A stretch of DNA of 57,845 bases from Cyanobium sp. NIES-981 (lineage in GTDB: Bacteria > Cyanobacteriota > Cyanobacteriia > PCC-6307 > Cyanobiaceae): positions 1-57,845 of the forward strand of contig CAMDLO010000006.1 in the NCBI GenBank assembly GCA_945901765.1, in the 5' to 3' direction. Position 1 is the first letter of the stretch. Every line of letters starts with the position of its first letter. Positions 4,544-10,406 of this stretch are shown here, piece by piece. A program made the translations under genes and the position numbers. The notes under the pieces are model-generated. The model made no database searches. It was not told the DNA's origin and saw nothing but the letters and a program-made list of their open reading frames with translations.

Positions 4544-4571
4544 GCCGGCTCTTCAGTGCCGGCTCTTCAGT
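4544..4571. repeat. 14-bp direct duplication
   Basis: The sequence TGCCGGCTCTTCAG occurs twice back to back between the ends of two convergent genes, just beyond or at the stop of the fructosamine kinase. It looks like a recent small tandem duplication and has no obvious terminator character. Confidence 0.6.
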
Positions 4572-5481
4572 GGCGGCTAGCCAGCAGGGTGGTCAGCAGG
4601 GTGGTCAGGCAGTCCTGGGCCTGCTGGAGATACCCGCCGCCAAACAGGTTGGCATGGTTCAGCAGGTGATAGAGGTTGTAGAGCGGCACACGCCTTTCGG
4701 CCCCTGCAGGCAGGGGCCATGCCTGTTCATAGGCCTCGAAGAATCCGGCCGGAAAACCGCCGAACAGCCGGGCCATGGCCAGATCCACCTCCCGATCAGC
4801 CCAGTGACAGGCGGGATCGAACAGGGCCGCCCCGCCGCCCCGCACCAGGGCGGCATTGCCGCGCCAGAGGTCCCCATGCACCAGCACCGGTTCGCTGGGG
4901 TGTTCCAACCAGTCCGGCAGCTGCTCCAGCAACAGCTCAGCGCCCCGGAGCGCCTGCCCCTGGCGAGCAGCTGAAGCAAACTGGGGACCAAGGCGCGCCG
5001 CAGCGAAGAAATCGGGCCAATCGGAGCTCCAGCCGTTGATCTGGGGGCTGGCACCGATGAAGTTGTCGCACTCGAAGCCGTAGCCGCGGCCGCCATTGCC
5101 CGCCCGGCTGGAGCGGTGCAGATCCGCCAGGCCCCGCCCGAGCGCTCTCCAGCCTGTAGGCCCCCCCCCGCTCTCCTCGAGATCCAACCAGGACAGCACC
5201 AGCACCGCGTGCTCCGCCACCGCCGCCAGGGCCAGGGGACGGGGGAGCTGCAGCGGAGCAGCGGCCCAGGGGGCCAGGGCCTCCAGGCCGGCCCGCTCCG
5301 CTGCCAGCACGGGCAGTCGGGCGCGGCTGTCGGTCTTGGCGAACAGCCGGGAGCCATCGGCGAGCTGCAGACACCAGCAGGCGTGACTGCAGCCACCGCC
5401 CACCGGCGTGATGGAGACCAGCCGCACCCCGAGCTCGCTGTCCAGCCAAGGGGCCAGGACTGAGGCGAGGGCTTCCCTCAT
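4567..5481 (-). CDS. Fructosamine kinase family protein
   Basis: The 304-residue product has the fructosamine-3-kinase/aminoglycoside phosphotransferase fold. A Gly-rich loop (VGGGCSHA at about 27-34) and Lys49 (LFAKT) belong to the ATP lobe, HGDLWRGN at 202-209 is the catalytic loop, and DPACHWADREVDLAM at 222-236 carries the Mg-binding Asp and the family signature ending in LFGGF. Such kinases phosphorylate ketoamines formed by glycation and so start their repair. I chose ATG 5481 over 5511; the longer start would leave only 6 bp to the start of the divergent crtD gene. It is convergent with the CAAD gene. Confidence 0.88.
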   Translation of the reverse strand: MREALASVLAPWLDSELGVRLVSITPVGGGCSHACWCLQLADGSRLFAKTDSRARLPVLAAERAGLEALAPWAAAPLQLPRPLALAAVAEHAVLVLSWLDLEESGGGPTGWRALGRGLADLHRSSRAGNGGRGYGFECDNFIGASPQINGWSSDWPDFFAAARLGPQFASAARQGQALRGAELLLEQLPDWLEHPSEPVLVHGDLWRGNAALVRGGGAALFDPACHWADREVDLAMARLFGGFPAGFFEAYEQAWPLPAGAERRVPLYNLYHLLNHANLFGGGYLQQAQDCLTTLLTTLLASRH

Positions 5482-5517
5482 GGCGCGGACCAACGCGGGA
5501 GCTGCCAGCATGCCTGG

Positions 5518-7041
5518 ATGGGAGCGAACGGGGATGCCGGCGGCCAGTCCGTCGTGGTGGTGGGAGCCGGCATCGCCGGTCTGACAGCGGCCGCGTTGCT
5601 GGCCAGGGCGGGGCAGCCAGTGACCCTGCTGGAGGCTCACCATCAGAGCGGTGGCTGCGCCGGCACCTTCCGCCGCGGCCCCTACACCTTTGATGTGGGC
5701 GCCACCCAGGTGGCCGGACTGGAGCCTGGCGGCAGCCATGCTCGCCTGTTCGCCCATCTCGGCATCGCTCTGCCGGCCGCCATCCCCCTTGATCCCGCAT
5801 GCGTGGTGGATCTGGGTGACGGTCAGCCGCCTGTGCGGCTCTGGCGGGATCCGGCCCGCTGGCGCGAGGAGCGCCAGCGGCAGTTCCCCGGCAGCGAACC
5901 CTTCTGGCAGCTCTGCAGTCGGCTGCATCAGGCCAACTGGCGATTCGCGGCCCGGGATCCGGTGCTGCCACCGCGCAATGGCTGGGACCTGGCCCAGCTG
6001 CTGGGCGCAGTCGGAGCCGACACCCTGGCCAGCAGCCTGGTCAGCAGCGCCAGCGTCGCTGATCTGCTGCGGCTCAGCGGTTGCGGCGCTGATCGCCGGC
6101 TGCGCCACTTTCTTGATCTGCAGCTGCGGCTCTACTCCCAGGAGCCTGCTGATCGCACAGCCGCGCTCTACGGCGCCACGGTGCTGGCGATGGCCCAGGC
6201 GCCCCAGGGGCTGTGGCACCTGCAGGGATCAATGCAGACATTGAGCCAGGCTCTCGAAGCGGCCCTGACGGCTGCCGGTGGCCGGCTGCTGCTGCGCCAT
6301 CGGCTCTGCGGGCTGCGCCGGTGTGGTGCCCACAACTGGCACCTCTGGGGTGAGCGGGGGGGGAACGGCCGGTTCCAGCTGGAGGCGGCCGACGTGGTGC
6401 TGGCCATCCCGCCTCAGACGCTGCCGGCCCTGCTGGGCGACGGGCTGCCGGCCGGCTACCGGCGACGCCTGCAGCACCTGCCGGATCCCTCGGGTGCCCT
6501 CGTGTTCTACGGGGCGGTGGAGCGGGCCCGGCTGCCGGCCGCAACCCCCGCCCACCTGCAGACCGCCTGGGATGACCCAGGCTCCCTGTTTCTGTCGGTG
6601 AGCAGCGACGGCGATGGGCGGGCACCGCTGGGAGAGGCCACGGTGATCGCCAGTGTGTTCACAGCGGCGCGCCCCTGGTTCAGCCAGGAACCCCACGCGT
6701 ACGACGCCGCGAAAGCCAAAGTCCGGCAGGGCATCCTGCTGGGGCTGGAGCGGGCCCTCGGCATCGGGGCCGAAGCATGGCGCCACCAGGAGCTGGCCAC
6801 ACCGCGCGGCTTCGCCCGCTGGACCGGCCGCCCCTTCGGCTTCGTCGGTGGCCTGGGACAACGCCCCAGCAGCTTCGGCCCCTTCGGCCTGGCCAGCCGC
6901 ACCCCCCTGGCGGGCCTGTGGCTGTGCGGCGATGCGATCCACCCCGGCGAGGGAACGGCCGGAGTGACCCTTTCGGCCCTGATGGCCTGCCGCCAGCTGC
7001 TGCAGCGGCGCGGCATGGAGCTGAAGCTGGAAGGTGGCTGA
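5518..7041 (+). CDS. crtD: FAD-dependent carotenoid desaturase, CrtD-like
   Basis: The 507-residue flavoprotein belongs to the phytoene desaturase/CrtISO superfamily. VVVGAGIAGLTAAALLARAG at about 13-32 is the FAD-binding Rossmann motif, with GGCAGTF next to it. GDAIHPGEGTAGVT from about residue 471 is the C-terminal FAD motif. The internal stretch TFDVGATQVAGLEPGG and the conserved FPGSEPFWQL resemble the cyanobacterial CrtD group, which introduces the C-3',4' double bond in myxol-type carotenoids. A CrtISO-like role is the main alternative. The ATG at 5518 is the first in-frame start and lies only 36 bp from the divergent fructosamine kinase start. Confidence 0.8.
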   Translation: MGANGDAGGQSVVVVGAGIAGLTAAALLARAGQPVTLLEAHHQSGGCAGTFRRGPYTFDVGATQVAGLEPGGSHARLFAHLGIALPAAIPLDPACVVDLGDGQPPVRLWRDPARWREERQRQFPGSEPFWQLCSRLHQANWRFAARDPVLPPRNGWDLAQLLGAVGADTLASSLVSSASVADLLRLSGCGADRRLRHFLDLQLRLYSQEPADRTAALYGATVLAMAQAPQGLWHLQGSMQTLSQALEAALTAAGGRLLLRHRLCGLRRCGAHNWHLWGERGGNGRFQLEAADVVLAIPPQTLPALLGDGLPAGYRRRLQHLPDPSGALVFYGAVERARLPAATPAHLQTAWDDPGSLFLSVSSDGDGRAPLGEATVIASVFTAARPWFSQEPHAYDAAKAKVRQGILLGLERALGIGAEAWRHQELATPRGFARWTGRPFGFVGGLGQRPSSFGPFGLASRTPLAGLWLCGDAIHPGEGTAGVTLSALMACRQLLQRRGMELKLEGG

Positions 7042-7049
7042 ACAGCGCG

Positions 7050-7985
7050 TCAGAGAAAGTCGGGACGCAACCGCTGACAGTGCTCCAGCGCTGCCTGCAG
7101 GCCCGGCCAGTCCTGGGCGTTGAGCAACGCGTCCAGATCGTCGAGGCTGCGGCGGTAGCCGGCCAGGGCCGCGAGAACCGGCTCCCTGTTGCAGCGAGCC
7201 ATCAGGGTGCCCAGTTCGGGATTGCCGCCGCCCACCCGGGTGGTGTCGGCGAAACCGCTGGAGGCCAGCGCCCGCACCAGCTCGGAGAGCGCCGCACCGC
7301 CGACCGCCGCCGCCTGCCGATCGGCGCTGCTGAGCAGAGCAGCGCTGACAAGCACCGGCAGATGGGAGATCAGGGCCACAGCCTGATCGTGCTCGGAGGC
7401 CGTGCAGGCCAGCCACCGGGCTCCCACCGACTCAGCCAGGGCACGGACGACCGCCAAGGCCTCCCCATCGGCATCGGCTGCAGGCGTGACCACCCAGGGG
7501 CGGCCTCGGAACAAGCCACGCTGCCCGGCATCCACACCCGCCTCTGCGGTGCCGGCCATCGGATGGGAGGGGACGAAGCGGTGGTGGATCGGCTGCCAAC
7601 GGGCCAGCACCGGTTGCTTCACCGAGCCCACATCAGTGATCACAGCCTGGGGCGGCAGTGCTGCCAGCAAGGCCGGATCCGGTTCGAGCAGACGATCGAG
7701 CGGCAGAGCCAGCACGACCAGGCCACAGCCACTGAGGATCGCCGGATCGGTGGAGACCACCTGCACCAGGCCCCGCTCCAGTGCCCGAGCCGCCGTGACC
7801 GGGCGATGCACCAGTCCTCGCACCTCGAAACCGAGAGCCTGGAGATCGAGGCCCAGCGACCCGCCGATCAGTCCCAGGCCGACAATCCCCACCGGCCCTG
7901 AAACGGCAGGGCAGGCAGGTGGAGCGGGACGGGGTGCTGGCACCTCCCCGGGCGGAGTGACGGCAGGGCTCGCGGCTGGGCTCAT
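7050..7985 (-). CDS. tyrA: Prephenate/arogenate dehydrogenase (tyrosine biosynthesis)
   Basis: The product, up to 311 residues, is a TyrA-family dehydrogenase. GLGLIGGSLG at about 36-45 is the NAD(P)-binding loop, HPMAGT at 141-146 includes a conserved active-site His, and SHLPVLVSAALL lies in the dimerisation half. Cyanobacterial members generally oxidise arogenate with NADP, which is family knowledge. The start is uncertain. ATG 7985 gives a Pro/Ala-rich 30-residue leader with no ribosome-binding site, while GTG 7892 would place the start directly before the Rossmann motif as in many homologues. Four 15-bp tandem repeats sit immediately upstream of ATG 7985. It converges on crtD with 8 bp between stops. 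Confidence 0.9.
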   Translation of the reverse strand: MSPAASPAVTPPGEVPAPRPAPPACPAVSGPVGIVGLGLIGGSLGLDLQALGFEVRGLVHRPVTAARALERGLVQVVSTDPAILSGCGLVVLALPLDRLLEPDPALLAALPPQAVITDVGSVKQPVLARWQPIHHRFVPSHPMAGTAEAGVDAGQRGLFRGRPWVVTPAADADGEALAVVRALAESVGARWLACTASEHDQAVALISHLPVLVSAALLSSADRQAAAVGGAALSELVRALASSGFADTTRVGGGNPELGTLMARCNREPVLAALAGYRRSLDDLDALLNAQDWPGLQAALEHCQRLRPDFL

Positions 7986-8195: not shown

Positions 8196-9638
8196 GTGCT
8201 TGAGGCCCGCGCCCATGACCAGCTCAAGGCTCTGCTTCGTCACGAGGGAGCTGGTCGCTGGCCCCATCACCTCAGCCTCACCCGCCTGGTGGGACGGAGC
8301 CTGCGCCGGCAGGATCACACGCTGGTTCGCCTGGTGCCCGGTACAGATCCAAGCTGGCTGATCGGCCTGCTGGTACCCCTCGCCCTCAGCGAAGCGCCAC
8401 TGGCACTGGTGGTGAGCGAACCCCTGCGCCAGCGACTGCTGCGGGTGGAGCTGCCGCGGCTGAAAGCCGCCGATCCCGACCTGGCCTTGCCTTGTTTCGA
8501 AGGAGACGACCCTGGTGACAGCCGGGTGTGGCTTCTGAACCACCAGCAGCTGGTGCAGGCGTGGCAACAGAACCGCCTCGGGGGGCGTCAGCTGGTGATT
8601 CCGGAAGTTGAGCAACTGGATGAGCAGCTGCGGCAGGCCCTGGAGATCCGGCTTGCCCCCGAGCACTGGGAACAGCTGCGCCGCGCCCATCCCCGGATTG
8701 AAGCCGCCCTGCTGGAGATCCACCAGCGCCTCAACCAACGCATCCTCAGCCATCCCCGCACCCCTGATGGCCTGGTGCCGATCGCCGACGATGCCGAGGC
8801 GCCGCTGCGCCATCTGCTCGCCCTACTGGGCAGCCTGCCGGACCCCTGGCAGCGCTGGCGCGAGCAAGCAGGCCAGGGCTGGACCAGCATGGCCCAGCGG
8901 GACGCGCGGCTGCTGCAGTGGACACTGCAGCGGCAACCACTGGAACCGCTTCAGACCTTGAGCGGCCTGCTCCAGCAGCGCGGGGCGGTGCTGATCGGCC
9001 AGCTCGGACCTGACAGCACTGCGCCCGCTCTGCTCGGCCTGGACCCTGACGTGTGCGTCGAGCTTGGCGATCCTCCGCTTGCCGATCCCCTGCCCGTCTA
9101 TGCGCCGCTGCGCCAACCGCTGCCCAACAGCCCTGATTACAGCGAGCATCTGCTGAGCCAGTGCCGACGGCTGGTGCTGGGCCAGGCTGGTCTCTCCGTG
9201 GTGCTGCTCGACGACAACCTTCTGCGCCACCGACTGGCCAGTGGCCTGGCAGCCGAGTTCGGCCGTCGGGTTGTGGAGGAGACCACAGCACCGGACAGCA
9301 ATGGCGTGCTGTGCTGCCGCTGGCGCTGGTGGCTCGAGCATCAGTCGGCACTGCCGCTGCCCGATCAGGTGATCGTCGCCTTGCTGCCGATCGCCAGCCT
9401 GGAGGATCCCCTCACAGCAGCGCAGGTGCAGCGGCTGCGTCAACAGGGGCGCGACTGGTTCCGGGAGCGACTGCTGCCCGATGGTCTGACGCGGCTGCAG
9501 CTGGGTGTTGCCAGCCTCCGCCGCCATGGCGGGCGGTTGGCCATCCTCGATGGCCGGCTGCGCGGACGCAGCTGGGGCAGACAGGTGCTGCAGGCCCTGG
9601 ACCCCTGGCTGCAACTGAGTCGGCTGATGCCCCTGTGA
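8196..9638 (+). CDS. Degenerate DinG/Rad3-like helicase relative
   Basis: The 480-residue protein can be aligned by eye along the DinG/XPD helicase plan, but the catalytic motifs are altered. Where Walker A (GxGKT) is expected it reads GTDPSWLIGLLVPLAL (49-64). A motif-Ia-like LVVSEPLRQRLL follows at 71-82, and WLLNHQQLV (112-120) matches the family's TNH segment. The DEAH box position reads VIPEVEQLDE (134-143). The C-terminal LLPDGLTRLQLGVASLRR (426-443) and ILDGRL (450-455) match the DinG motif VI region, normally LPEA..QGxGRLIR and ILDxR. The four Fe-S cysteines are absent. I infer an ATPase-dead, possibly structural, relative. The start is GTG 8196. Confidence 0.65.
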   Translation: MLEARAHDQLKALLRHEGAGRWPHHLSLTRLVGRSLRRQDHTLVRLVPGTDPSWLIGLLVPLALSEAPLALVVSEPLRQRLLRVELPRLKAADPDLALPCFEGDDPGDSRVWLLNHQQLVQAWQQNRLGGRQLVIPEVEQLDEQLRQALEIRLAPEHWEQLRRAHPRIEAALLEIHQRLNQRILSHPRTPDGLVPIADDAEAPLRHLLALLGSLPDPWQRWREQAGQGWTSMAQRDARLLQWTLQRQPLEPLQTLSGLLQQRGAVLIGQLGPDSTAPALLGLDPDVCVELGDPPLADPLPVYAPLRQPLPNSPDYSEHLLSQCRRLVLGQAGLSVVLLDDNLLRHRLASGLAAEFGRRVVEETTAPDSNGVLCCRWRWWLEHQSALPLPDQVIVALLPIASLEDPLTAAQVQRLRQQGRDWFRERLLPDGLTRLQLGVASLRRHGGRLAILDGRLRGRSWGRQVLQALDPWLQLSRLMPL

Positions 9639-9732: not shown

Positions 9733-9981
9733 ATGGGAGAAGCCAAGCGCCGCCAGAGCCAGGGCCTACCACCGCGCCACCCGCGGCAGTCCCCCGAACG
9801 CGACGGTGATGCGGGGCCCCGTCTGGCGTCCTGGCTGCCGCTGAACCGCTCCCAGGCCGATCGGTTCGTGGCCATCACCACCAAAGGAGCCTGGATCGGC
9901 ATCGGCGCCCTGGTGGTCTTCTGGCTGACGGTGCGCTTCATCGGGCCGGCCGCCGGCTGGTGGACCCTGGCGGACGGCTGA
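9733..9981 (+). CDS. DUF2839 small membrane protein
   Basis: The 82-residue protein matches the cyanobacterial DUF2839 pattern: an N-terminal MGEAKRRxxxGLPPR, a charged linker, then TTKGAWIGIGALVVFWLTVRF as a single transmembrane helix (about 50-70) and a short WW-containing tail. The function is unknown. It is followed about 100 bp downstream by another cyanobacteria-restricted gene (DUF1815) in the same direction. Confidence 0.85.
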   Translation: MGEAKRRQSQGLPPRHPRQSPERDGDAGPRLASWLPLNRSQADRFVAITTKGAWIGIGALVVFWLTVRFIGPAAGWWTLADG

Positions 9982-10082: not shown

Positions 10083-10406
10083 ATGTTTCCCCGTCTGGCA
10101 GAGCAATACCGCAGCGTCGTGCAGGACCTGGTGATCAGCCTGCAGGCCCTCTCCCTGAGCCTGCAGGCCAGGGGACTGGCCGCCACCTGCTACACCTGTG
10201 GCGATGGGCGGGATGGCCAGGGTGCCTCGTTTGTCGCCAACCTGGGCGAAAACCACATGGTTCGCTTCCTGGTCTCCGATTTCGGGATCAGCTGGGTGGA
10301 GTCCCGCGACGGCCACGAACTCGTGAAGCTGGAGGGCGCTGAGGCGATCCAGGAACTGCAGCGCGTGAGCGAAGTACTCCAACAACCGGTCGCAGCGGCC
10401 CTCTGA
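10083..10406 (+). CDS. DUF1815 protein
   Basis: The 107-residue soluble protein matches the cyanobacterial DUF1815 family: MFPRLAEQYR at the start, a CYTCGDG motif near residue 38, ASFVANLGENHMVRFLVSDFG (about 50-70) and VKLEGAEAIQELQ near the C-terminus. The two cysteines in CYTC are a visible redox or metal possibility but no function is established. It converges on recA, with a GC-rich hairpin between the two genes. Confidence 0.87.
   Translation: MFPRLAEQYRSVVQDLVISLQALSLSLQARGLAATCYTCGDGRDGQGASFVANLGENHMVRFLVSDFGISWVESRDGHELVKLEGAEAIQELQRVSEVLQQPVAAAL

Follow-up and report, generated by a model that had tools for sequence, protein, structure and literature searches.

The window analysed here, a stretch of 57,845 nucleotides from Cyanobium sp. 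NIES-981 (contig CAMDLO010000006.1), contains an open reading frame whose protein follows the plan of the helicase DinG and in which every catalytic motif is altered. This raises the question whether the locus codes for a working enzyme that standard motifs fail to recognize, for a decaying remnant, or for a protein that is kept for another job. The relevant features are listed in Table 1. The annotated GTG start of the gene, which we refer to as pseudo-DinG, agrees with the MLEA start of its orthologues.

Table 1. Features of the pseudo-DinG gene and its neighbourhood (coordinates refer to the window; residue numbers refer to the pseudo-DinG protein).
Feature	Coordinates	Strand	Remarks
tyrA (prephenate dehydrogenase)	7050..7985	-	divergent neighbour upstream of pseudo-DinG
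pseudo-DinG gene	8196..9638	+	GTG start, 480 aa, complete frame; only copy found in the genome
WPHHLS at the place of the DinG Q motif	8259..8276	+	W22 and H24 invariant in the 34 members of alignment A2
GTDPSWLIG, Walker A remnant	8340..8366	+	residues 49-57; W54 aligned to the DinG lysine column, gapped region
Point at which the Fe-S domain is absent (approximate)	8490..8531	+	E. coli DinG residues 117-213 have no counterpart
PEVE at the DEAH position (motif II)	8601..8612	+	residues 136-139; alignment of 121 + 15 sequences
HD2-like half (rough boundary)	9096..9635	+	best conserved part of the protein
LLPIASLEDP, counterpart of the DinG P motif region	9381..9410	+	by alignment; P motif as given in the available text of PMC6300356
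GRDWFRE	9447..9467	+	F422 aligned with F638 of E. coli DinG
LGVASLRR at motif VI (DinG QGxGRLIR)	9501..9524	+	residues 436-443; alignment of 121 + 15 sequences
DUF2839 gene	9733..9981	+	directly downstream of pseudo-DinG
DUF1815 gene	10083..10406	+	downstream, co-directional with pseudo-DinG

Single-sequence searches register only its last ~80 residues, the Pfam model Helicase_C_2 is matched with an E-value of 0.0061 (below cut-off), and the NCBIfam models for YoaA and DinG are matched with E-values from 2.6e-10 to 4.8e-4, far below the model cut-offs; none of the Pfam and NCBIfam models tried gave a name above cut-off. Homology was assessed with alignments of family members (A1 with 22 members and the broader A2 with 34) and with an alignment of true DinG proteins (A3, consisting of eight proteins from other classes of the phylum and E. 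coli DinG). Profile-profile comparison of A2 with A3 by hhalign resulted in a probability of 100 and an E-value of 1.4e-43 over 467 columns, from end to end, and all 34 members of A2 match the NCBIfam YoaA and DinG models with E-values of 0.001 or better. The first-pass annotation had placed the protein in the DinG family by eye, and this placement was right. A profile search of the PDB with A2 retrieved E. coli DinG (6fwr, E-value 3.6e-7), covering the C-terminal part only, and the same search with the narrower alignment A1 returned nothing useful.

A scan with one genome per species yielded 38 orthologous loci, all of them cyanobacterial; two are distant (34-35% identity), one of these being from Gloeomargarita. 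Among the matches listed when A1 was searched against 292 genomes of the phylum were 11 genomes from other classes, which, judging from the class structure of GTDB, we take to be non-photosynthetic relatives. The proteins from eight of these were read (G035, G041, and G050 were left out), and all eight are DinG with EAGTGxGKS, DEAH, FWEG, and GRLIR. Motif counts come from an alignment that combines 15 true DinGs and 121 distinct family frames; a family frame was included if it was longer than 350 aa, scored more than 200 bits with A2, and scored higher with A2 than with A3, shorter fragments being excluded.

The catalytic residues are lost throughout this family. In the column of the Walker A lysine, all 15 true DinGs have Lys, in contrast to none of the 121 family members (Trp 57, Tyr 48, His 12, Ser 3, gap 1); because this region is gapped in the alignment, the exact residue that faces the lysine is uncertain. 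The claim of a ruined Walker A motif is thus borne out. A search of the 121 frames for the strict P-loop string [AG]xxxxGK[ST] hit only two of them, and no intact P-loop was found elsewhere in the sequence of the window protein. In L082 the string precedes the aligned start, and in L031 it falls in a variable loop (GSPGPGKT near residue 319). The latter, which has no equivalent downstream of the aligned start in any other member, was taken as a chance occurrence.

At motif II, the reported loss of DEAH holds for Asp, Ala, and His, while the second letter of PEVE still stands in the Glu column. Across the family, Asp is retained in 49, Glu in 55 (including the window protein), and His in 8 of the 121 members; Asp followed by Glu is found in only two, both of which read DEAD (L081, L092) and both of which are devoid of the Walker A lysine. 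A DE[AG]H string is present in a single one of the 121 frames, elsewhere than in the motif II columns. Grouping by identity to the window protein, with three rows placed by hand, gives DGAH in four of eight Gloeobacter-like members (DRAH, DCAH, DQAH, and DQTQ once each), DGAD (11) and DGVD (9) as the commonest forms among 53 members from other cyanobacteria (DEAD 2), and PEAE in 31 of the 60 members near the window protein. The Gloeobacter-like copies thus look less eroded than the rest of the family, as far as can be judged from these motifs.

Motif III (SAT) is not conserved among the 121 members. At motif VI (QxxGRxxR), the first Arg is retained in only one of them and an Arg stands one column off the last position in 119; the motif had been described as ruined, which is correct for the first Arg, but one Arg (R442) is kept, one column off. 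The missing Fe-S cysteines are likewise gone, although not by mutation: the whole Fe-S domain is absent and, with it, parts of the arch. Three of the four cysteine columns were examined, and all 121 members have gaps in each of them, compared to Cys in 10, 14, and 15 of the 15 true DinGs. When the altered motifs were sought in homologues, loss of the catalytic residues proved to be common to the family. The observation of a DinG relative with lost catalytic motifs is thus confirmed, and these sequences make a real loss of ATPase activity very probable.

Pseudo-DinG is widespread. Of 388 genomes of the class, 346 are matched by the A2 profile, mostly once (genomes with two or three matches include those that have DinG as well and those with matches split in pieces); with the A1 profile, 148 of 292 genomes of the phylum were matched. 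Even genomes as small as 1.6-1.7 Mb (genus g2) retain the gene, and no internal stops occur among the matches listed. Among 20 listed of the 42 class genomes that have no match, 19 belong to one family (f26), and the remaining one (G314) is 87% complete. When f26 was searched separately, pseudo-DinG was found in none of its 38 genomes with the query that matches 346 class genomes, so that a whole cyanobacterial family (e.g., G193, G318, and G355) is without it. Large f26 frames that match Helicase_C_2 (839-890 aa) were considered as DinG candidates, but the one examined (L159) did not exceed 20 bits with either profile.

One peptide pattern hit six stretches in viral contigs, with no relative confirmed. 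Residues 391-470 hit seven phage records, all below 60% identity; among five of them that were listed, three are annotated as helicase and two have no annotation. There were 15 matches to plasmid records, none of which covers 80% of the query, and no cyanobacterium was among the organism names counted; among 10 plasmid matches listed, three carry the annotation DNA helicase or yoaA, and for seven no gene is listed.

It had been suggested that the protein might be the partner of an active helicase. For DinG, this is unlikely. A search with the DinG profile in the genome that contains the window (94% complete) gave nothing else better than an E-value of 0.002, and a 704-aa frame on contig 15, considered as a second DinG, reads as UvrB (by eye, from its start). 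Only nine of 388 class genomes have a true DinG (E-value 1e-40 or better), eight in the Gloeobacter-like families f47, f54, and f55 and one in f50 (G302). The dead copy co-occurs in all nine, as read from the sequence in seven and from A2 E-values in two (5.8e-204 in G302, 2.1e-144 in G368).

The DinG of G302 (L152) groups with the Gloeobacter-like DinGs (support 100/98), and may have been either retained or acquired by transfer. Five of the 15 true DinGs (L152, L153, L154, L155, and L157, from f47, f54, f55, and f50) have Ser at the first Fe-S cysteine, and their cluster may, because of this replacement, have three cysteine ligands.

In a tree of 45 rows, all 30 family members chosen are placed behind one branch (100/100) with a stem of 2.06 changes per column, and the dead family thus has a single origin on this tree; the DinG of the other classes comes out as its sister group, without firm support (85/77). 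The bootstrap had yet to converge, and the letter composition of 13 rows is unusual. Since Gloeobacter-like genomes contain both DinG and the dead copy, the simplest history in the light of this tree is that the dead copy arose once, before Gloeobacter split off, and that the working DinG was then lost in most other lineages; the alternative is lateral transfer.

Selection on pseudo-DinG is purifying. Omega values (Nei-Gojobori) range from 0.052 to 0.238 in 14 pairs, all well below 1; some sequences occur in more than one pair, and in some pairs dS has reached saturation (about 1 or more). For tyrA, omega is 0.167-0.348 in eight shared pairs, and pseudo-DinG has the lower value in seven (the exception being L108/L109); recA has lower values than pseudo-DinG, with a finite value in seven of eight pairs. 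A comparison with crt comprises five pairs, two of them on fewer than 50 codons. Because of purifying selection and wide conservation, the frame is not taken as a product of chance. The proposal that selection acts on a non-catalytic role is supported, as purifying selection fits it. Pseudo-DinG almost certainly represents a DinG-derived family without canonical catalytic residues that is under selection.

What is conserved gives some indication of the role. At least 95% conservation among the 121 members is seen at 40 positions, 15 of which are shared with true DinGs (at least 80%) and 25 of which are not, a combination that points to a kept fold together with a putative new role. The clear new residues are E3, H7, W22, H24, W158, G356, R358, V359, and P389; the W22 column has Arg and the P389 column has Leu in all 15 DinGs. 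Weak cases among the new positions are R458 (Lys in 12 of 15 DinGs) and L26, D420, and A449 (shared by 11 of 15), as well as R442, which is probably the last Arg of motif VI aligned one column off. In the HD2 half, P304, P310, P398, W421, F422, P428, D452, R454, and G461, among others, are common to pseudo-DinG and true DinGs.

According to the available text on the DinG-ssDNA structures of Cheng and Wigley (PMC6300356), DNA is contacted by F615, F638, and Y636 in HD2 and by R117 and R211 at the Fe-S domain, F638 stacks on an ssDNA sugar, and the HD2 half contacts seven bases. The F638 position is Phe in all 121 family members, and the F615 position is Ile in 72, Leu in 28, Phe in 17, and Val in 4. 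The base-stacking Y636 is replaced by Asp in 120 of 121, as it is in 11 of the 14 true DinGs other than that of E. coli. The contacts by R117 and R211 are missing along with the Fe-S domain. From the retained HD2 residues, binding of DNA by pseudo-DinG is suggested. The range of pI values (5.8-9.2 across seven members) and the loss of the contacts on the Fe-S side speak against tight binding. It should be kept in mind that F638 may have been kept for folding rather than for DNA binding, as it sits in a DWF-like string that is also kept in true DinGs.

Genes for DUF2839 and DUF1815 trail pseudo-DinG on the same strand in many cyanobacterial families, and DUF2839 is directly 3' of it in 13 of 30 cyanobacterial families listed; in the window, recA is also downstream, beyond these two genes. 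DUF2839 was found in all 18 genomes tested, including all eight tested f26 genomes, which lack pseudo-DinG; it therefore does not depend on pseudo-DinG and was rejected as a functional partner. Adjacency to tyrA is common near the lineage of the window and was seen in a few other families, so that it is not general. Further upstream, the frame at 4567-6219 (minus strand, 550 aa) has a Pfam match to fructosamine kinase that is confined to residues 267-543; its true start is probably further in, because its front overlaps an amine-oxidase-type gene at 5518-7041.

As a helicase homologue that has lost its catalytic motifs and is under purifying selection, pseudo-DinG is most likely a pseudohelicase. 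The sequences establish its kinship with DinG, the missing catalytic residues, its distribution, its single origin on the tree, and the selection on it; beyond this, we propose the following. Before Gloeobacter diverged from the other cyanobacteria, a DinG relative of the XPD family would have given up its Fe-S domain along with the capacity to bind and hydrolyse ATP, and it would have been retained ever since, mostly in one copy per genome. The two-lobed helicase fold would persist, its HD2 face would still hold on to single-stranded nucleic acid but would not translocate, and a partner would be bound by residues that became fixed in this family, namely E3/H7, W22/H24 (in the Q motif region), and G356/R358/V359. 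Pseudo-DinG would thereby serve in DNA or RNA upkeep as a clamp or scaffold that needs no ATP. Among the points that count against this proposal is that a whole family (f26) does without the gene. Taken as a whole, we consider the chances of this clamp or scaffold with a bound partner to be about even.

Its main competitor, somewhat less probable and nevertheless to be taken seriously, is a pure protein-protein adaptor, in which the helicase fold is an interaction surface that binds no nucleic acid, perhaps in a process that is specific to cyanobacteria and outside DNA repair. None of the ssDNA contacts looked up corresponds to E3/H7, W22/H24, or G356/R358/V359, the pI is not uniformly basic, and R117 and R211 on the HD1/Fe-S side are gone, all of which would suit an adaptor; on the other hand, the best conserved part of the protein is the very HD2 half that contacts seven bases in DinG (available text of PMC6300356), and F638 is invariant.

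We regard it as improbable that the protein is a functional enzyme that standard motifs do not reveal, with a remodelled nucleotide site or with an activity that is new. New conserved residues do stand at old motif positions, Glu occupies the second DEAH column in 55 members including the window protein, and L081 and L092 have DEAD at motif II, but the Walker A lysine is absent from all 121 members, including the two that combine Asp with Glu, the first Arg of motif VI survives in one, and the SAT of motif III is not conserved. A decaying pseudogene or chance open frame, which the alteration of every catalytic motif and the absence of the gene from f26 might bring to mind, can practically be dismissed, given that omega is far below 1 in every one of the 14 pairs, that the matches listed are free of internal stops, and that there are residues invariant across 34 diverse A2 members.

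Pseudo-DinG resembles DinG and YoaA (5'-3' Fe-S helicases of the XPD family, superfamily 2) in its end-to-end homology and the order of its motor domains, and differs from them in having neither the Walker A Lys, DEAH, the first Arg of motif VI, the Fe-S domain, nor parts of the arch. Pseudohelicases as such are already known. PriA of D. radiodurans is also a helicase homologue with motifs that are poorly conserved in a whole phylum; as described in the available part of PMC4504706, it has no ATPase or unwinding activity but is still able to bind DNA, and there is evidence that it binds DnaB, which makes it a precedent for the proposal above. PriA is a different helicase, with a known role in replisome reloading. 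Utp25 has a helicase-like fold with dispensable DEAD-box motifs; according to the available part of PMC9539457, it is, unlike pseudo-DinG, a relative of eukaryotic DEAD-box RNA helicases that acts in ribosome assembly. In the literature, as covered by titles and the openings of abstracts (thinly for subscription papers), we found no treatment of a cyanobacterial pseudo-DinG family. What is unusual in the present case is its breadth and the visible gradient of decay.

For annotation, this means that a gene present in most of the sampled cyanobacterial genomes (346 of 388) has no name above cut-off, and that a plain helicase label would contradict its sequence. The family displays graded decay of a helicase under selection, from DEAH in DinG to DGAH-like forms in Gloeobacter-like members, often DGxD in other cyanobacteria, and PEAE-like forms near the window protein. 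Its conservation suggests a protein whose engine parts are gone and which would have been kept for another job, perhaps that of holding single-stranded DNA. Gloeobacter, which has both proteins, and f26, from which the gene is missing, lend themselves to testing what the dead copy does, and the same cases bear on why most oxygenic phototrophs are without the Fe-S enzyme. As a conjecture that is rather unlikely to be correct in full, a copy of DinG in the stem of the oxygen-producing cyanobacteria would have lost both its Fe-S domain and its ATP engine and turned into a near-core, ATP-independent factor of genome upkeep, the working DinG would then have disappeared from nearly all lineages outside the Gloeobacter-like ones, and this swap may reflect the oxygen that these cells make internally.
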